DNA from: Desulfovibrio sp.
Lineage (GTDB): Bacteria > Desulfobacterota > Desulfovibrionia > Desulfovibrionales > Desulfovibrionaceae
Length of the DNA stretch: 64,000 nt
Reading direction: 5' to 3'
Assembly (NCBI GenBank): GCA_031279825.1
Contig: JAITHT010000081.1
Span: forward strand, 1 to 64,000
Within the stretch, counting starts at the first letter, position 1. Every line of letters starts with the position of its first letter. This document shows positions 1-61,579 of the stretch, piece by piece. A model generated the notes under the pieces. The model had not been told where the DNA came from and made no database searches. It saw only the letters and a list, made by a program, of their open reading frames with translations. The translations under genes and the position numbers were made by a program.

Positions 1-281
1 CGCGCTCCTGACGTATCCCTGAACAACACGCGCTCAGGGAGGCAAACCCGCTTACACGGCTTTGCCCCCCTTTCTCGCGCTTCTCCCTTTCTTACACCCG
101 ATCCCGACCAAAGTCAAAAGATTTCCCGTGAGGACGAACGGCGGCCCCGCGCGAATTGTTACCGTAGCGGAAAAGGCCTTCCGACGTAAGCGCGTCGCGC
201 TGACGCGCCTGTCAAGGGATGTCTTGTATTGACATAATCGCCGATGTCCTGAAGTATGGCCTCCGCAATCCGTGAACACGA

Positions 282-386
282 AGCTGACAACGCGCTTTAT
301 CCGGGCGCGCTTGCGCACGGGGAGCAGGCGAAACGTGTTTTCGCCGAGGGCGGCGAGTGCGACGTTGCAAAGTTAATCCGCTCCGG
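282..386 (-). repeat. Copy of dispersed intergenic repeat family (R1), upstream of cobB
   Basis: Reverse complement reads GGAGCGGATTAACTTTGCAACGTCGCACTCGCCGCCCTCGGCGAAAACACGTTTCGCCTGCTCCCCGTGCGC, matching the copies at 37341 and 41671. Confidence 0.8.
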
Positions 387-16173: not shown

Positions 16174-17467
16174 GATGCAAAACTGGATTAGCTTGAACGA
16201 TTGCCTGGAAAGCGTGTCTTTAGAGTATAGCGACGTTGAGACGCCCCGCCCGGCGCTTAACGGCGAAAGTGAATTTCACCCACGCCGCACAGGCGGGCGG
16301 CGGGGCTTCGCCTTACCCGCCGCCGGGCAATTTCATTTTGAAATTGCCCGGGATAAAGCGATATCTGACGATCTGGACAAAATTCGAAAAATATCACTGC
16401 AATTTGGGTGGCAATCATGGACTTCCACTGATTATCAGGATGCCGTTATAGAGATTATTTACCGCCTGCAATCCCACCCGGGCTGCGTTATTGAATTGGG
16501 TTCATTTAACGGTGGAATGAGCGTGCTTTTGGCCTATGCCTGTCATAAAACAAATAAAAAACTATTTTGTATCGATATTGACGCAAATGCCATAAAGACA
16601 ATAAGAGAACATCTGAATTTATTAGATATTCCAACATCCCACGTTACCCTGTGCACGGGAACCATTGATAGTTTCATAGAAAACCATCAGATGGCCGTGC
16701 CCCCTTCCGTGGTAATTATCGACGCGATGCATTCGTATCAATGCTGCCGGCATGATTTATCCGCTGTCTTGGCCAACTTTTCCAATACTGAAATGATAGT
16801 TCTGCATGACTATGCCCTTACATATAGCCCCAATGCCATATTGTCAGGAGAAAAAGTACCCCTGTTTCCCGGAGTTAAGTCAGCGGTATCGCATATCCTG
16901 GGCAATGACGCTCCCATGGTCCGATTGGGTATTACAGGCGAAGATCAAGTTAGCGTTAATGATACTGAAAATTTTCAGAGCAAATCATTAATATGGGAGC
17001 ATGGAGAGCCGGAGGCAATTGCTTTTAAGCCGTCAATGATGCCAACGGAATCAATACATCGCGCGACATCTTTTATGATTTTTGAATTAATGAAAAAAGA
17101 GCAAAGAATAAGGCATATGCGCGACAATGATATACAAAAATATACATTGTTATCCTCAAACGGCCAATGGCGGGATTATGAAATTAAATATAAAAAGGCA
17201 ATTGACGCGCGCATGTTGTGTTACAAGATACAAACCATAAATCAAGGAACGGATGTAAATATGCGGATGGCCTTGCTCGCGCCTGATGAGAATAATGTCC
17301 TGGAACAATATTTTTCTGTGCCGCATGGGTGGACATCCATTCATATCAACGCTTCTGACTTGAGCGTCTTACGGGGACAGCCGGATGTATCGCGGGTAAC
17401 GCATTGTTATATCGGCGGGATGATTGGGCCGGAGGGGATAAGGATTCTATGCGAAACAAATCCTTAA
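16174..17467 (+). CDS. SAM-dependent methyltransferase-like protein with a GC-rich in-frame insert near its N-terminus
   Basis: CVIELGSFNGGMSVLLAYACHKTNKKLFCIDIDANAIKTIREHL, VVIIDAMHSYQCCRHDLSAVL. ATG at 16174/16175. Confidence 0.65.
16323..16351. repeat. In-ORF palindrome related to the dispersed hairpin
   Basis: CCGGGCAATTTCA-TTT-TGAAATTGCCCGG, 13-bp perfect arms, inside CDS 16174-17467. Confidence 0.85.
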
Positions 17468-27443: not shown

Positions 27444-27944
27444 ATGGTCGGACATGCTGTGACCGTTCTCGGCATTGATCCCGGTTCCCGCCGTCTGGGC
27501 TGGGGGGTTGTCCGGGAGCTTTCCGGGGTGCTCTCCTTGGTGGACTGCGGCACGCTTCTGCCCAAAGGGGGGGAGTTTTCCGCGCGTCTTGCGGATCTGT
27601 TCGCGGATCTGTCCTGCCTGGTGGCTGCCCATCATCCCGCGGAAGCCGCCGTGGAAGACGTGTTTACCCATAAAAACGTGTTGAGCGCCCTCAAGCTCGG
27701 GCAGGCAAGGGGCGTGGCCGTCGCCGCCTGCACCGCTCACGGGGTGCCTGTCATCGACTATCCTCCCGCTGTGGTCAAAAAAAGCCTGGTGGGCACGGGC
27801 AGGGCCGAAAAAGAACAGGTCGCCTTTATGGTCGGCCGGATACTCGGCGTCAAGCAATCCTGGTCCATGGACGCTTCCGACGCCCTGGCCGTGGCCATCT
27901 GTCACTTGAACAACCGCCGCATGAACCGGCTGACCGGCCGTTAG
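27444..27944 (+). CDS. ruvC: Crossover junction endodeoxyribonuclease RuvC
   Basis: VLGIDPGSRRLGWGVV, AVEDVFTHKNVLSALKLGQARGVAVAAC, DASDALAVAICHLN. Confidence 0.94.
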   Translation: MVGHAVTVLGIDPGSRRLGWGVVRELSGVLSLVDCGTLLPKGGEFSARLADLFADLSCLVAAHHPAEAAVEDVFTHKNVLSALKLGQARGVAVAACTAHGVPVIDYPPAVVKKSLVGTGRAEKEQVAFMVGRILGVKQSWSMDASDALAVAICHLNNRRMNRLTGR

Positions 27945-28095
27945 AGCTTTGTCACTTCGACACTCTAACGGCCGGCAGCGCAAGCGCCGGCTTACGCGCG
28001 CGCGGAGCGGGCGAAACGTGTTTTCGCCGATGGCGACGGGTGCGGCGTCTCAAAGGTCATCCGCATCCGGAGCCTTTTCACTTTGACAATGCTCC
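27944..28095 (-). repeat. Copy of dispersed repeat family (R2), flanked by hairpin variants
   Basis: AGAGCTTTGTCACTTCGACACTCTAACGGCCGGCAGCGCAAGCGCCGG...GGGCGAAACGTGTTTTCGCCGATGGCGACGGGTGC...GGAGCCTTTTCACTTTGACAATGCTCC. Confidence 0.8.
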
Positions 28096-37148: not shown

Positions 37149-37340
37149 CTCCCCTCATGTGTATGGGGCTCCGCCCCAAACCCCCAAGGGGCATTATGCC
37201 CCTTGACCCCTTTATTCCCGGCGGCGCTGCTTCGCGGCGCCGCCGGGCCGTGAGGACGTAAGGGAAGTCATTCCCTTTGCCCGGGAATTCGGGGAAGGCC
37301 CGTCCCCGGAAGCAGTGAGTTACATAATACTCAATGAATT

Positions 37341-37469
37341 AGAGCAGATTAACTTTGAAACGTTGCACTCGTCGCACTCGGCGAAAACGCGTTTCGCCTA
37401 CTCCTCGTGCACGAGAGCCGACGCTTACGCTGTCGGTTGACAGAGCATTTTCACAGTGAAAATGCTCTG
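37341..37469 (+). repeat. Copy of dispersed repeat family (R3), upstream of metA
   Basis: AGAGCAGATTAACTTTGAAACGTTGCACTCGTCGCACTCGGCGAAAACGCGTTTCGCCTACTCCTCGTGCACGAGAGCCGACGCTTACGCTGTCGGTTGACAGAGCATTTTCACAGTGAAAATGCTCTG. Confidence 0.9.
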
Positions 37470-37498
37470 TCCCGTGTCTCGGGAAAAAGGAGGAGAGC

Positions 37499-38440
37499 AT
37501 GCCCATCAATATTCCGGCGGATTTGCCCGCCCACAGTAAATTGGAAGAAGAAAACATCTTCGTCATGTCCGAGGACCGGGCAAAGGTGCAGGACATCCGG
37601 CCGCTGCGCATAGCCATCGTCAACCTCATGCCCACGAAAATCGCCACGGAAACCCAGCTTCTGCGCCTGCTCGGCAATTCCCCCGTACAGGTGGACATCA
37701 CGCTCATCAAGGCGGAAAGGCATATCTCCAAAAATACTTCCATCGAGCACCTGGAGCGTTTTTACACCGCCTTTTCCCGGATACGGGCAAAAAAATTCGA
37801 CGGCATGATCATCACCGGCGCACCGGTGGAGCAACTTGATTTTTCCGAAGTCGATTACTGGGACGAGCTTGAGGCCATCATGGACCACAGCCGCACCCAC
37901 GTCTTTTCCACGCTGCACATCTGCTGGGGGGCGCAGGCCGGCCTCTTTCACCATTACGGCATCAAGAAGCATCCCCTGCCGGAAAAACTCTCCGGCGTGT
38001 TCCCGCATACGGTGCATAACAGGCTCGACCCCATCTTCCGCGGCTTTGACGACATCTTCCACATGCCGCACTCGCGCTATACGCAAGTGCGCCGGGAAGA
38101 CATTCTGGCCGTGCCGGATCTCGCCGTCCTCGCCGAATCCCCCGAAGCCGGCGTATGCGTGATCAAAGCCCGTGACAGGCGCCAGTTCTTCATTACCGGG
38201 CACATGGAATACGATGCCGACACTCTGGCCAGGGAATACCAGCGGGACAAAGACAAAGGTCTGCCAATCGCTCCTCCGCGCCATTATTTTCCCGACAACG
38301 ACCCATCAAAACCGCCTCTGGTCTTCTGGAGGGCGCACGCGAACCTGTTCTTTTCCAACTGGCTTAACTTTTACGTCTATCAGGAAACGCCCTTCGAACT
38401 GGACGCCATCGGCGCACAAAACCCGCCGGCCAAGGCATAG
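37499..38440 (+). CDS. metA: Homoserine O-acyltransferase (MetA family)
   Basis: [111 protein letters not shown]. Confidence 0.95.
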
Positions 38441-41644: not shown

Positions 41645-41799
41645 GAGCATTTTCACTTTGAAAATGCTCCAGGGCAGATTAACTTTGAAACGTTACACTC
41701 GTCGCCCTCGGCGAAAACACGTTTCGCCTGCTCCTCGTGCACGAGAGCCGACGCTTACGCTGCCGGTTGACAGAGCGTTTTCACTTTGAACATGCTCTG
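41645..41799 (+). repeat. Copy of dispersed repeat family (R4), hairpin at both ends
   Basis: GAGCATTTTCACTTTGAAAATGCTC at 41645-41669; body from 41671; CAGAGCGTTTTCACTTTGAACATGCTCTG at 41771-41799. Confidence 0.9.
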
Positions 41800-41970
41800 A
41801 TTGTTTCTCACAACGACAGGGCCACTCACGCCCGCAGGCATTCTGAAAAAAGTGAAACGGAATTGGCCTGTTGAGATACAGAGCACGCGAGTTTGCTGAA
41901 GCTCGAAAAACTTCCGCCCGTCCGCGCCTCGCCGTCCGGCACAGCCGCCATACCAAGGAAAAAACTACCT

Positions 41971-43182
41971 ATGAAAACACCGCAGGCATGCCGTATTCTG
42001 ATTTGCGGCGCAGGCATCATCGGTATCACTCTGGCCCGCGAACTTATTTCACGCGGCCTTGAGGATATAACCCTGATTGAAGCGGAAGCGGCCCTCGGCG
42101 CTCACTCTTCCGGCCGTAACAGCGGTGTGCTGCATTCGGGTATCTACTATGCCCCGGAGAGCGTACGCGCGAAAACATGCCTTGAGGGCAATCGCCTGTT
42201 GCGGGCGTGGTGTGAAGAAAAAGGCCTGCCGCTGGCCGTGACGGGCAAGGTCATTGTGGCCCGTCGCGAAGAGGAACTCATCTCCATGGAGAATTTGCGC
42301 CGGCGGGCCGAAAGCAACGGAGCTACGGTACGCGTGGTGGACGAAAAAGAATTGCGGGAAATCGAGCCACTTGCCCGCACGGTGGGGAACATGGCTCTGT
42401 ATTCTCCTGAAACCGCCGTTCTGGATCCCAAGGCAACCCTTGAATCCCTCACGCAGGACTGTCTTGCCGGCAAAAAAGCCCGCCTGCTGTACAACACGCG
42501 CTTTACGGGACTGAAAGACCCGCGCGTCGCAAAAACCACCGGGGGAGACATCGCCTTTTCCTATTTCATCAACACCGCCGGGCCCTTCAGCGATGTGGTG
42601 GCGCATGCCTTCGGCCTCGGCAGGCACTACGCACTGATACCCTTCAAGGGTATTTATCAGGAATTCGCATCCCCTCATGCCGCGCAGGTGCGCGGCAATA
42701 TTTATCCCGTGCCTGATCCGCGAAATCCCTTTCTGGGCGTACATTTTACCCGCAGCATCAGCGGACGCGTATACGTGGGACCAACGGCCATACCGGCTTT
42801 CAGCCGCTTGAATTATAAAATAATTTCGGATATTTGCTTACGTGAGGTTCCTTCCGTCATACACGCCGTTTTCATGATGTTCACGCGCAATCCGGGTTTT
42901 CGCGCCATAGCCTTGAGCGAGCCCAGAAAATATTTTTCGCGTTTTTTCCATGCGGACGCTCAAGAACTGGTGCGGCAACTCGCCCCGCAAGAAATACTCC
43001 CCTGCTCTAAAGTCGGCCTGCGCCATCAACTTGTCGATACGCGGGATTGGACGATGGTCATGGATTTTCTGGCGGAGCGGGATGAGCGGAGTTTTCATGT
43101 GCTCAACGCCATATCGCCCGGCTTCACAAGCTCCATGGCCCTGGCGAAACATATGGCCGAAACGATACTCCCCCACCTTTAG
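41971..43182 (+). CDS. lhgO: L-2-hydroxyglutarate oxidase-like FAD enzyme
   Basis: ILICGAGIIGITLARELISRG, HSSGRNSGVLHSGIYYAPESVRAKTCLEGNRLLRAWCEEKGLPL; INTAGPFSDVVAHAFGLG. Confidence 0.88.
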   Translation: MKTPQACRILICGAGIIGITLARELISRGLEDITLIEAEAALGAHSSGRNSGVLHSGIYYAPESVRAKTCLEGNRLLRAWCEEKGLPLAVTGKVIVARREEELISMENLRRRAESNGATVRVVDEKELREIEPLARTVGNMALYSPETAVLDPKATLESLTQDCLAGKKARLLYNTRFTGLKDPRVAKTTGGDIAFSYFINTAGPFSDVVAHAFGLGRHYALIPFKGIYQEFASPHAAQVRGNIYPVPDPRNPFLGVHFTRSISGRVYVGPTAIPAFSRLNYKIISDICLREVPSVIHAVFMMFTRNPGFRAIALSEPRKYFSRFFHADAQELVRQLAPQEILPCSKVGLRHQLVDTRDWTMVMDFLAERDERSFHVLNAISPGFTSSMALAKHMAETILPHL

Positions 43183-43188
43183 ACAAGG

Positions 43189-43297
43189 CGCCGCACTCGT
43201 CGTTTACGGCGAAACGGGTTTCTCCTACTCCTCGTGTGCGCGAGTCAGCGCTTGCGCCGCCGGTTGACAGGCAGGTTCAAAATGAAAATACTCTCAA
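43189..43297 (+). repeat. Diverged copy of dispersed repeat family (R5)
   Basis: GCACTCGTCGTTTACGGCGAAACGGGTTTCTCCTACTCCTCGTGTGCGCGAGTCAGCGCTTGCGCCGCCGGTTGACAGG. Confidence 0.75.
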
Positions 43298-47645: not shown

Positions 47646-49958
47646 ATGATAGATATCTGTACCCAAGGGGCCTATCTGCACGACAACAACCGGCTGGACG
47701 CCGTCTCCGGCAATGCCGCCGGACTGCAACGCCCGGAAAAGGCCCGCGAGGGAACCATCGCCTGCCGCATTCTCGCGGCGCATTCGCAAAGCGACGACGC
47801 GGCGCGCCTGCGCATTGTCTTTGACGCCCTGGCCTCCCACGACATCACCTATGTGGGCATCGTCCAGACGGCCAGAGCCGGCGGCATGAAGCATTTTCCC
47901 CTGCCTTACGTGCTGACCAACTGCCACAACAGTCTCTGCGCCGTCGGCGGCACCATCAACGAGGACGATCACCTCTTCGGCTTGTCGGCGGCAAAGAAGT
48001 ACGGCGGAGAATTCGTCCCCGCGCACATGGCGGTCATCCACCAATATATGCGCGAGATGTACGCCGGCTGCGGCAAAATGATTCTCGGCTCGGACAGCCA
48101 TACCCGTTACGGGGCTCTCGGCGCCCTGGGCGTGGGCGAAGGAGGGCCGGAACTGGTAAAGCAACTCCTCGGACGCACTTACGACCTCAACGCGCCTGAA
48201 GTTGTGGCCGTGTATCTTGAAGGAACTCCGAAAGCCGGCGTCGGACCGCAGGACGTCGCTCTGACCCTGATCAGAGCCGTGTTCAAGGACGGTTTGGTTA
48301 CAAACAAGGTTCTGGAATTCGTCGGGCCCGGGGTTGCCGGCCTGTCCGTTGACTACCGCCTGGGCATTGACGTCATGACCACGGAAACCGCCTGCCTGAC
48401 CTCCGTCTGGCAAACGGACGACAAGGTGCGGGAATGGCTGGCCGCGCATGGCCGCGTGGAAGACTATCATCCCCTGGCGCCTGAAAACGGCGCATGGTAC
48501 GACGGCGTCATCACCATTGACCTTTCCCGGGTGGAGCCGATGATCGCGCTTCCCTTCCATCCCAGCAACGCCTGGACCATTCGGGAATTCCTCGCCAATG
48601 CGGACGATCTTTTACACGGACTTGAATCCGAGGCCGCCGACATGCTCGGCAAGACATCCACGCGGCCCAATCTGCGTTCCCGACTGAAGAACGGCGCCTT
48701 CATGGTCGATCAAGGCATTATCGCCGGGTGTTCCGGCGGTGTCTACGACAATCTTGTAAGGGCCTCCGCCGTGCTTGCCGGCCGTTCCACGGGCAACGGC
48801 GCCTTCTCTCTCTCCATCTATCCGGCCAGCCAGCCCCAGTATCTGGAATTAGTACGCAGCGGCTTGACCACCACTTTCATGGAAGCCGGGGCAAGCATAC
48901 GGACCGCCTTTTGCGGCCCGTGCTTCGGCGCCGGAGACGTGCCGGCGCACAACAGCTTTTCCATCCGCCATACCACGCGGAATTTTCCCAACCGAGAAGG
49001 CTCCAAGCCGGCAAACGGACAAATCGCCTACGTGGCGCTTATGGACGCGCGTTCCATAGCGGCCACGGCCGTCAACGGCGGCAGACTCACGTCGGCCACC
49101 GCCCTGCCCTGCCCTCCGGAGGAAACGCCCTATCCTTACGTCTTTCATTCCGGCATCTATGACAAACGGGTCTACCGGGGCTTCGGCAGGGCCGAGACAC
49201 AAGAGGCGCTGTCCTTCGGACCCAATATAGCCGATTGGCCCGCCATGCCTTCCCTGCCGGAGAATCTGATCCTCCAGGTGGTTTCAGCCATCTACGATCC
49301 CGTTACCACCACGGACGAGTTGATTCCTTCGGGAGAAACCTCCTCATACCGATCCAATCCCCTGAAACTTGCGGAATTCACCCTGTCACGCAAGGATCCG
49401 CAGTATCTGAACAGAGCCAGACAATGCTTTTCTCTGGAAGAAACCCGCAGAAAGATGACCAGCCAACGCCTCCCCGGAGACGAGGCGACATTTTCCGCCG
49501 CCCATACGGCGACGGCAAGGGAGGTCCGCGAACTCTTCGCCTCCCTCGGCCTGGCGGGGCAGGAAGGGCAAAGCGCCGTCGGATCCGTCGTCTTCGCCCT
49601 CAAGCCGGGCGACGGTTCCGCGCGGGAACAGGCGGCATCCTGCCAGAAGGTGCTGGGAGGCTGGGCCAACATCGCCGGAGACTACGCCACCAAACGCTAT
49701 CGCAGCAATCTGGTAAACTGGGGAATGCTCCCCTTTATCCTTGACAATGCAGCCTCGTACAATCTTCGCCCCGGCGACCGCCTCTGTCTGCCCGGCATCA
49801 AACAGGCGATCTTGTCCGGCCGTGAGGAAATAACGGCCCGCTGCCGCCAAAACGATGAGCAACTTGAACTTATCTTACGCCTGCCCGGCCTGACCAAAGA
49901 CGAACGCGCCGTCATTCTTGCCGGCTGCCTGATCAATTATTACGCTCAAGGGAATTGA
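47646..49958 (+). CDS. Aconitase-family hydratase (YbhJ-like)
   Basis: LTNCHNSLCAVGGTINEDDHLFGLSAAKKYGGEFVPAHMAVIHQYMREMYAGCGKMILGSDSHTRYGALGALGVGEGG; AGCSGGVYDNL; GPCFGAGDVPAHNSFSIRHTTRNFPNREGSKPANGQIAYVALMDARSIAATAVNGG. Confidence 0.85.
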   Translation: MIDICTQGAYLHDNNRLDAVSGNAAGLQRPEKAREGTIACRILAAHSQSDDAARLRIVFDALASHDITYVGIVQTARAGGMKHFPLPYVLTNCHNSLCAVGGTINEDDHLFGLSAAKKYGGEFVPAHMAVIHQYMREMYAGCGKMILGSDSHTRYGALGALGVGEGGPELVKQLLGRTYDLNAPEVVAVYLEGTPKAGVGPQDVALTLIRAVFKDGLVTNKVLEFVGPGVAGLSVDYRLGIDVMTTETACLTSVWQTDDKVREWLAAHGRVEDYHPLAPENGAWYDGVITIDLSRVEPMIALPFHPSNAWTIREFLANADDLLHGLESEAADMLGKTSTRPNLRSRLKNGAFMVDQGIIAGCSGGVYDNLVRASAVLAGRSTGNGAFSLSIYPASQPQYLELVRSGLTTTFMEAGASIRTAFCGPCFGAGDVPAHNSFSIRHTTRNFPNREGSKPANGQIAYVALMDARSIAATAVNGGRLTSATALPCPPEETPYPYVFHSGIYDKRVYRGFGRAETQEALSFGPNIADWPAMPSLPENLILQVVSAIYDPVTTTDELIPSGETSSYRSNPLKLAEFTLSRKDPQYLNRARQCFSLEETRRKMTSQRLPGDEATFSAAHTATAREVRELFASLGLAGQEGQSAVGSVVFALKPGDGSAREQAASCQKVLGGWANIAGDYATKRYRSNLVNWGMLPFILDNAASYNLRPGDRLCLPGIKQAILSGREEITARCRQNDEQLELILRLPGLTKDERAVILAGCLINYYAQGN

Positions 49959-49983: not shown

Positions 49984-50014
49984 CCGGAGCGTTTTCACTG
50001 TGAAAACGCTCCGG
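49984..50014. repeat. Isolated perfect copy of dispersed hairpin (covariant)
   Basis: CCGGAGCGTTTTCACTGTGAAAACGCTCCGG. Confidence 0.9.
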
Positions 50015-54261: not shown

Positions 54262-54298
54262 GCGGACGAGGAGGAGTGTTTGCCGCGCGTTAGGTCAT

Positions 54299-54385
54299 AG
54301 AGCAGATAAACGTTGCACTCGTCATTGACGGCGAAAACAAGTTTCGCCCACTCCTCGTACACGCAACCGGCGCTTACGCTACCGG
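54299..54385 (+). repeat. Copy of dispersed repeat family (R6), touching the 3' end of the PNP gene
   Basis: AGAGCAGATAAACGTTGCACTCGTCATTGACGGCGAAAACAAGTTTCGCCCACTCCTCGTACACGCAACCGGCGCTTACGCTACCGGC. Confidence 0.8.
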
Positions 54386-55218
54386 CATTCTTTCTCCAAA
54401 GCGGGCAGCGCGGCCAGGAGAAGGCTCTCAAGCCAGGCGGCGGCTTTTTCCGCCGTTGCGATAATGTCTTCAATGGTGGTTTCGGCCATGCAGTCGGGGA
54501 GGTTCTGATTGCTGAGGCAGGATACGCCGAGCACGCGCAACCCTCTGTGTTTCGCGGCTATGGCTTCAAGGGCGGTGGACATGCCCACGGCATCGCCGCC
54601 GAGAAGACGGTAGGCCCGCGTTTCCGCGCGTGTTTCAAGCTGTGGCCCGGGAATGCAGAGGTAGACGCCTTTTTTCAGACCTATGCCCAGGGAGAGGGCG
54701 CTCTGCTCCATAATTCGTATAAGGTCGGGATCGTAGAGTCCGGACATGTCGGGAAAGCGGGAGCGCCGACTATCCTCGTCGGGACCGGTGAGAGGACTTT
54801 GCCCGGTGAGGTTTATCTGGTCCGTAATAAGCATCAGGGAGCCGGCGGAGAAGAGCGGGTTGATGGCCCCGGCGGCGTTTGTTAGTATAAGAGAGGTAAT
54901 GCCTAACTCCGCCATGACGCGCACCCCCATGCAGATATCATCCGGCGTCCGGCCTTCATAAAGATGGCAACGCCCCTGCTGGAGAATGACGGATATGCCG
55001 GCAAGCGTTCCGGCGGAAAAGGCGCCGTGATGAGAAGGTGCTGTAGATTGGGGAAAACCGGGCAGATCCGCATAAGGGATATGGCGGGCATCTTGTAACG
55101 AACATGCCAAATTGCCCAGCCCGGTACCGAGAACTATACCGATTTTTGGAGAAAACTCTTGCGGCAGTGAAGATTTGAGCATTGCAACACAAATCTGGAC
55201 TTTTTTTGACTTTTGCAT
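54379..55218 (-). CDS. Purine nucleoside phosphorylase
   Basis: KIGIVLGTGLGNLACSL, GRCHLYEGRTPDDICMGVRVMAELGITSLILTNAAGAIN, GPQLETRAETRAYRLLGGDAVGMST. Confidence 0.93.
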   Translation of the reverse strand: MQKSKKVQICVAMLKSSLPQEFSPKIGIVLGTGLGNLACSLQDARHIPYADLPGFPQSTAPSHHGAFSAGTLAGISVILQQGRCHLYEGRTPDDICMGVRVMAELGITSLILTNAAGAINPLFSAGSLMLITDQINLTGQSPLTGPDEDSRRSRFPDMSGLYDPDLIRIMEQSALSLGIGLKKGVYLCIPGPQLETRAETRAYRLLGGDAVGMSTALEAIAAKHRGLRVLGVSCLSNQNLPDCMAETTIEDIIATAEKAAAWLESLLLAALPALEKECR

Positions 55219-55458
55219 AAAGTGGCTTCCTGTCTCCTTCGCGTCGGATCGGCCGGATCCTGCCGTTTTTCTGTTGCGGTTTTGCGCGTATCGGCTGCTT
55301 TCCCCCAGGTACTGTTGACGCTATGGGATTTTTGTTCTCCGGCAAGGCAGATGAGCCTGCTATGAGAGAAAATGCTCTAAGTACAGTAGCTCAGAATTCA
55401 GCCGGAACCAAGTCCGGGATCCGTTTTTTTATTTTATTTGAGGGTACAGGAAAAACCG

Positions 55459-60984: not shown

Positions 60985-60992
60985 GACTGCCC

Positions 60993-61112
60993 TGGAGCAT
61001 TTTCACTTTGACACCGCTCTGTCAACCGGCAGCGTAAGCGCCGGATCTCGTGCACGGGGAGCAGGCGAAACGTGTTTTCGCCGAGGGCGACGAGTGCAAT
61101 GTTGCAAATGGA
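60993..61112 (-). repeat. Copy of dispersed repeat family (R7), between ssb and EF-hand gene
   Basis: GGAGCATTTTCACTTTGACACCGCTCTGTCAACCGGCAGCGTAAGCGCCGG...GGGGAGCAGGCGAAACGTGTTTTCGCCGAGGGCGACGAGTGCAATGTTGCAAATG. Confidence 0.88.
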
Positions 61113-61120
61113 GAACTTCC

Positions 61121-61579
61121 ATGGTTAACTTTTTTATCATTGGAAAGACGCGCGTCGACATATTTTCGAAAAATGCCGTCAGCAACGCTTTGGCGGCGCT
61201 CTGCCTTTGCGCCGCGTTTGTGACCGCCATGTTGTGGGAGATTTCTCCCGTCAGGGCAGGGCAGGAAATGTCCCGACAGGGAGTGGAAGAGCGTTTTGCC
61301 GCCATGGATGCGGATAGTAACGGCAAGGTAAATCGTGAAGAATTTTTGGCCGCTCATCCCGCTATGAAAGATGAAGCCTTTGCCGCCATTGACGCCGATG
61401 GCGATGGCGTCCTTGTTATTAAGGAATGGAAAGATTTTGCCGCCGGGCACGGTATGGGCGGAGCTATGCCGCCCGTGCCGTCCTCTGGGACGGAAGGCGC
61501 GTCTTCGGCGGGAAAAGACGCGCCCGGGCTTTCCGATAAGCCTCCCTCATTGCTCATGCCGCCCGGCAATTCCCGCTGA
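61121..61579 (+). CDS. Membrane-anchored or secreted EF-hand protein
   Basis: N-terminal hydrophobic segment; two EF loops DADSNGKVNREEF and DADGDGVLVIKEW. Confidence 0.8.
   Translation: MVNFFIIGKTRVDIFSKNAVSNALAALCLCAAFVTAMLWEISPVRAGQEMSRQGVEERFAAMDADSNGKVNREEFLAAHPAMKDEAFAAIDADGDGVLVIKEWKDFAAGHGMGGAMPPVPSSGTEGASSAGKDAPGLSDKPPSLLMPPGNSR

Follow-up and report, generated by a model that had tools for sequence, protein, structure and literature searches.

The 64-kb stretch of DNA analysed here, referred to as the window, contains eight copies of a folded repeat of about 126 bp, as determined with a covariance model. We regard this element, with a probability of roughly 0.88, as a non-autonomous transposon (MITE) of the IS630/Tc1-mariner group. 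As is typical of MITEs, it is short, non-coding and devoid of a transposase, and complete IS630 elements with the same ends and TA flanks point to an IS630-mobilised MITE of the RUP kind.

A first-pass annotation of the window had reported a dispersed repeat at seven places, in both orientations and at gene borders. A BLAST search of the window with the copy at 37341-37469 returned all seven, and so did a covariance model based on 40 copies from the window's genome, which in addition recovered an eighth, diverged copy at 16220-16352 that the annotation had missed. The blocks assigned to a module of 90-130 bp are present; the unit itself measures 126-132 bp and is bounded by inverted repeats and TA. 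One full-length copy is located on the + strand at 37339-37470 (flanking dinucleotides included) between an aminotransferase gene and metA, which encodes homoserine O-succinyltransferase and starts downstream at 37499. Another full-length copy, found by BLAST and covariance model, occupies 41669-41800 (+). It had been annotated as 41645-41799, and the earlier start adds a separate solo terminal palindrome, GAGCATTTTCACTTTGAAAATGCTC (41645-41669, +), which abuts the copy at 41669. Three further copies were found by both methods and are damaged: the right half is degraded at 257-386 (-), the right end at 54297-54428 (+), and the left end is replaced at 60992-61123 (-). At 43179-43296 (+), the left end is shortened and the edge overlaps the stop codon of a gene ending at 43182, while the diverged copy at 27941-28069 (-) overlaps with one edge the 3' end of a predicted gene. 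The additional copy at 16220-16352 (+; 38.6 bits, E = 3.6e-10) belongs to a diverged subfamily with GGGCAATTTCATTTTGAAATTGCCC as its terminal palindrome P4. This copy and an ORF at 16175-17467 overlap at the predicted 5' end of the latter, whose true start may lie further downstream.

Solo palindromes of about 25 bp that resemble the right end of the element also occurred elsewhere, namely as GAGCGTTTTCACTGTGAAAACGCTC at 49987-50011 of the window, directly after a gene ending at 49958, and in two of the fetched loci (L013:989-1013 and L108:1379-1403). Some of them have TA on both sides, and they are possibly the smallest movable form. A mini-element, CTAGAGCAGATTAACTTTGAAACGTTGCTCTAG, with its left end closed on itself, adjoins an IS630 remnant at L049:1353-1383. 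A second dispersed sequence, AGGGCGTGTTAACACTATAGAATTTTTGTTCTCCGGCAAGGAAGATGAGTCTGCCATGAGGGAATATACT, gave 17 matches in the fetched loci, among them window position 55307, L011:1204, L015:1187, L031:1335, L033:1361 and L040:538. Many of these matches directly abut the element's edge (..TGCTCC joined to AGGGCGTG), and the sequence resembles the terminus of a different insertion sequence that would make use of the CTAG located there.

Aligned copies of the element have sharp edges, with (C)TA followed by GAGCAGATTAACTTTGAAACG on the left and TTTTCAAAGTGAAAATGCTC followed by TA(G) on the right. The terminal inverted repeats, GAGCAGATTAACTTTGAAA and GAGCATTTTCACTTTGAAA, correspond at 17 of 20 bases and are hence non-identical, and the right one doubles as one arm of a near-perfect palindrome. 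In the copy upstream of metA (all features on the + strand), the left terminal repeat GAGCAGATTAACTTTGAAA spans 37342-37360, is preceded by TA at 37340-37341 and shares 17 of 19 bases with an IS630 end (L169). It is followed by a long irregular hairpin, P1-P2 (37361-37413), in which the outer helix P1, formed by CGTTGCAC (37361-37368) and GTGCACG (37407-37413), encloses hairpin P2 (GGCGAAA at 37380-37386 with TTTCGCC at 37392-37398). Next are hairpin P3, CCGACGCTTACGCTGTCGG (37418-37436), and the terminal palindrome P4, AGAGCATTTTCACAGTGAAAATGCTCT (37442-37468), the outer strand of which forms the terminal inverted repeat on the right. The consensus fold has an energy of -48.9 kcal/mol (z = -4.7).

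IS630 and Tc1-mariner elements use TA targets. Complete IS630 elements of 984-996 bp with the same TA-flanked ends were identified in six relatives, one of the same genus (G132) and five others (G118, G171, G047, G212 and G107). The G132 element has perfect 16-bp ends (TA followed by GAGCATTTTAACTTTG), of which the other five carry near variants, and its transposase contains a DDE_3 domain split across two overlapping frames. The ends of the MITE are identical to the matching IS630 ends at 17 and 18 of 19 bases, the latter value being that of the consensus right end, while merely 0-7 of 19 bases match in three other IS630 types. MITE and IS differ in that the right end is palindromic in the MITE only and nothing in the IS corresponds to the MITE interior. 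The matching IS630 clade is present in 30 of 288 genomes of the family, including the same-genus genomes G132 and G126. Its transposase was not found in the assembly of the window's genome, which is 83% complete, broken at repeats and comprises 2.23 Mb in 94 contigs; the IS630 transposases in this genome are mostly broken. Two IS630 remnants of the window's genome (L046 and L049) were rejected as partners because their readable ends differ from those of the element, as was an IS5-type DUF4096 transposase, which is represented by three fragments and for which no matching ends were found. We infer from the shared ends that the element is mobilised in trans by an IS630 transposase.

To study the mode of insertion, the two flanks of every copy were joined, and the resulting empty site was sought in all of the fetched DNA. 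One clean case was obtained, in which L130:1044-1194 is 89% identical over 151 bp to the flanks of the copy at L032:1270. Here, AACACTAGTCTGG in the empty site corresponds to AACACTA[GAGC..GCCC]TAGTGTGG in the filled one (element in brackets), so that the target is CTAG and TA is duplicated. At the level of sequence, TA duplication around GAGC..GCTC is equivalent to a cut without duplication around AGAGC..GCTCT. TA is retained at the left edge in 47 and at the right edge in 46 of 103 copies; the other edges are mostly CA, TG or CG, that is, mostly one or two transitions away from TA, as expected from decay. The first-pass description as MITE-like could thus be narrowed down to an IS630-group MITE by the complete IS with matching ends, the TA duplication and the empty site.

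Genes were predicted with a home-made gene finder at the loci of 116 copies. About 72% of these loci were predicted to be coding, yet not one of the 116 copies lay by more than half within a predicted gene. Orientation relative to the flanking genes was unbiased (26 same versus 35 opposite in tandem arrangements, in addition to 22 convergent and 11 divergent gene pairs), and no common neighbour gene family emerged, the largest homologous group among 162 neighbouring genes having three members. The median distance to a copy was 48 bp for gene 3' ends and 158 bp for 5' ends. Moreover, a neighbour's stop codon, mostly TAG, was located at the edge in 20 of 116 copies compared to 3% of non-coding TA sites, an enrichment that is partly confounded because an edge TAG also terminates any ORF truncated by the insertion. 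As the element starts with G on both strands, insertion into the TA of a stop codon rebuilds TAG, which would make gene 3' ends safe landing sites; an advantage of stop rebuilding is suggested by this arrangement.

The annotation had further proposed a scan of the genome and its relatives with a covariance model, and copies confined to the window would have spoken against a dispersed family. The scan yielded at least 149 matches (E ≤ 0.001) in the window's genome. A degenerate 20-base pattern of the element's end had 79 exact matches in this genome, compared to 0 for the reversed pattern, which excludes that the repeat arose by chance. For the scan of the whole order, we used a second covariance model that was built on diverse subfamilies. 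With this model, the element was detected in 63 of 349 genomes, all of one family, and was absent from all 61 genomes of the order outside this family. It occurs in 15 genera altogether and in 15 of 15 genomes of the window's genus; the carriers include the single-contig genomes G042, G043 and G094. The subfamilies have diverged in sequence, yet have the same length and the same order of parts. A copy of at least one other subfamily was also found in the window's genome (L226; G000:C36:40679-40808), so that several subfamilies coexist there. Two pairs of near-identical copies, L053/L057 (95%) and L054/L058 (90%), stem from two MAGs of other genera and may reflect either recent horizontal transfer or cross-binning, a doubt that arises because both MAGs bear the sample prefix Pc512. 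No match to the element was found in phage or plasmid collections, and a pattern match in Planctomycetota was dismissed as chance since just 22 bases of the model aligned.

We then assessed whether the fold itself is conserved between subfamilies. To avoid bias towards the structure, 19 sequences from eight genomes were aligned with MAFFT, i.e. without fitting them to it. The four-helix model had 90% paired cells in this alignment, and 14 of 32 pairs were changed on both sides. The covariation score was 0.256, compared to 0.125 ± 0.012 for shuffled alignments and 0.04-0.08, with a maximum of 0.077, when the partners were slid. A second alignment of 39 sequences, aligned by the model and therefore biased towards the structure, gave 93.5% pairing, 24 of 32 doubly changed pairs and a score of 0.380, versus 0.134 when shuffled and at most 0.061 when slid. 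Hairpin P2, for example, occurs as GGCGAAA/TTTCGCC, GGCGCAA/TTGCGCC, GGCTAAA/TTTAGCC and AGCGCAA/TTGCGCT, and P4 as AGAGCATTTT/AAAATGCTCT and AGAGCAATTT/AAATTGCTCT; many subfamilies fold with identical internal loops. The initial impression of a structured repeat is thus borne out by hairpins that covary between subfamilies. The signal came solely from this comparison, as the copies of the window's genome alone showed almost no covariation in the consensus structure.

The substitutions within the window's genome bear on the level at which selection may act. Among 100 good copies, rare substitutions, defined as present in at most two copies and for this reason mostly post-insertion, were equally frequent in stems (0.012-0.013) and loops (0.011-0.012). 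Counting all substitutions, including inherited ones, they were 1.6-fold rarer in stems (0.075-0.083 versus 0.120-0.138 in loops). Since rare mutations are equal in stems and loops, the constraint would concern the multiplying source copies and not the resident ones. G-U and A-C changes were likewise equal (143 versus 150), and the folding energies showed no strand preference, with the + strand being the more stable one in just 15 of 116 copies. Resident copies seem to drift, and the constraint, if selective, seems to act on multiplying copies and to be strandless. The pattern is in keeping with the fold acting in movement or in making new insertions tolerable, but not with a permanent RNA function of the individual loci.

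These data also bear on the idea that the repeat is a transcribed structured RNA that functions in cis or in trans at each locus, e.g. as leader, 3' UTR processing site or small RNA, and has spread as a regulon. The strong consensus fold (z = -4.7), the compensatory changes between subfamilies and the copy immediately upstream of metA would be in line with it. However, orientation to the flanking genes is free, the neighbours share no gene family beyond a group of three, rare mutations do not spare the stems, neither the G-U changes nor the folding energies single out one strand, and Rfam has no match, so that we consider a stand-alone or cis-regulatory RNA, as initially envisaged, improbable. 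Slightly less probable still is a dispersed family of rho-independent terminators or attenuators spread by duplication. It would account for the strong hairpins and the proximity to gene 3' ends (48 versus 158 bp), but the aligned 3' flanks have no T tract after the terminal stem of the consensus, the one copy tested has no terminator-like site, and copies occur in either orientation, some of them between divergent genes. The least probable explanation is a REP/BIME-type repeat that is moved via single-stranded hairpins by a REP-associated tyrosine transposase, as the annotation's alternative label of REP-like implied. Hairpins, intergenic placement and solo palindromes are shared with such repeats, and the genome has one complete Y1_Tnp gene (L161; C53:15408-16067), which encodes a REP-type tyrosine transposase of 220 aa, and a broken one. 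Nevertheless, the complete gene is not flanked by copies of the repeat, and the TA target, the inverted ends and their near-identity to IS630 ends indicate a DDE transposase.

The main non-selective rival for the covariation is template switching between hairpin arms during replication (quasipalindrome correction). It concerns the reading of the fold alone, as the classification of the element as an IS630 MITE would be unaffected. Template switching would explain the compensatory changes in the terminal palindrome as well as the irrelevance of orientation and strand. Against it, tens of bases separate the two arms of P1, and many subfamilies retain the internal loops and single mismatches at the same place and in the same size, where correction would have removed them. 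In resident copies, single or broken changes also outnumber double changes (88 versus 23 in P1; 46 versus 0 in P2). We therefore judge an unselected origin of the covariation unlikely, though clearly less so than the RNA, terminator and REP explanations of the element.

Taken together, an IS630 MITE would propagate as follows. An IS630 transposase acting in trans would recognise the ends, GAGCAKWTTMACTTTGAAA, and excise the element, which would then insert at TA, preferably within CTAG, and duplicate the TA. Copies would build up between genes and subsequently drift neutrally, while the interior (P1-P2, P3 and P4) would stay foldable in those lineages that continue to multiply. Most likely, this would be because the fold helps the spread or the tolerance of new insertions, for example by bringing both ends to the transposase jointly or through insulation of adjacent transcripts. 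We put the odds of such a selected role in propagation at about even. A more specific version, in which the folded interior itself takes part in the transposition cycle, either as structured RNA or as a set of extruded DNA hairpins, is doubtful in our view. If true, the interior would be recognised by a DDE transposase of the IS630 type or by some factor of the host, and pairing would be selected family-wide; to our knowledge, no cut-and-paste IS630 MITE has a nucleic-acid cofactor role. Although small folded repeats are common in bacteria, it has rarely been established whether their folds serve a purpose or arise as by-products. The present family combines many diverged subfamilies of the same architecture, a candidate transposase, and old and young copies, so that whether and when the fold is selected can be answered by sequence data and one simple assay. 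For the Desulfovibrionaceae, a family of gut and sulfate-reducing bacteria, a repeat class is added that otherwise shows up as spurious ORFs.

The repeat had been called uncharacterised, a label that stands within the reach of Rfam and of the literature searched. The proposed Rfam comparison gave no match to the element above the gathering score; within the window, Rfam detected only a tRNA, next to weak chance matches of microRNA models (E of 0.15 or worse). We found no published description of the element and none of a MITE combining covariation and structured RNA, and the part of the literature on Desulfovibrio and miniature inverted-repeat elements that was accessible contained none about such an element. 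Several known repeats are similar by description. REP/BIME sequences with their RAYTs are likewise numerous, short, intergenic and palindromic, in contrast to which the present element inserts at TA and has inverted ends as well as a partner of the DDE type. BOX and SPRITE of pneumococcus are modular folded intergenic repeats (PMC3049150); unlike these, the present element has no terminator tail, and its core is conserved across the genera of a family. ERIC/RU-1 of enterobacteria (about 127 bp, intergenic, structured) is classed with the MITEs (PMC2229807). It is one long stem closed by paired ends, whereas the present element is a chain of hairpins and has an IS630 with matching ends. The Correia elements or NEMIS of Neisseria (about 100-155 bp) have terminal repeats, TA ends and base-paired transcripts (PMC2229807) and resemble our element, when compared by description and not by sequence, in size, terminal repeats and the TA at the ends. 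In addition, NEMIS is described as a target of RNase III, and an IHF site and putative promoters are described for Correia elements. The closest counterpart is RUP, the repeat unit of pneumococcus, with about 107 bp, about 110 copies, intergenic location, a strong fold, IS630-like ends and a TA target (PMC2229807, PMC3049150), whose mobilisation by IS630-Spn1 was proposed on the same kind of evidence (PMC2229807). Compared by description, both are alike in all of these respects, size and copy number included. However, RUP was described in pneumococcus and close streptococci, while the present element occurs family-wide in diverged subfamilies and, unlike RUP, combines a palindromic right end with a single multi-hairpin core in which compensatory changes occur.
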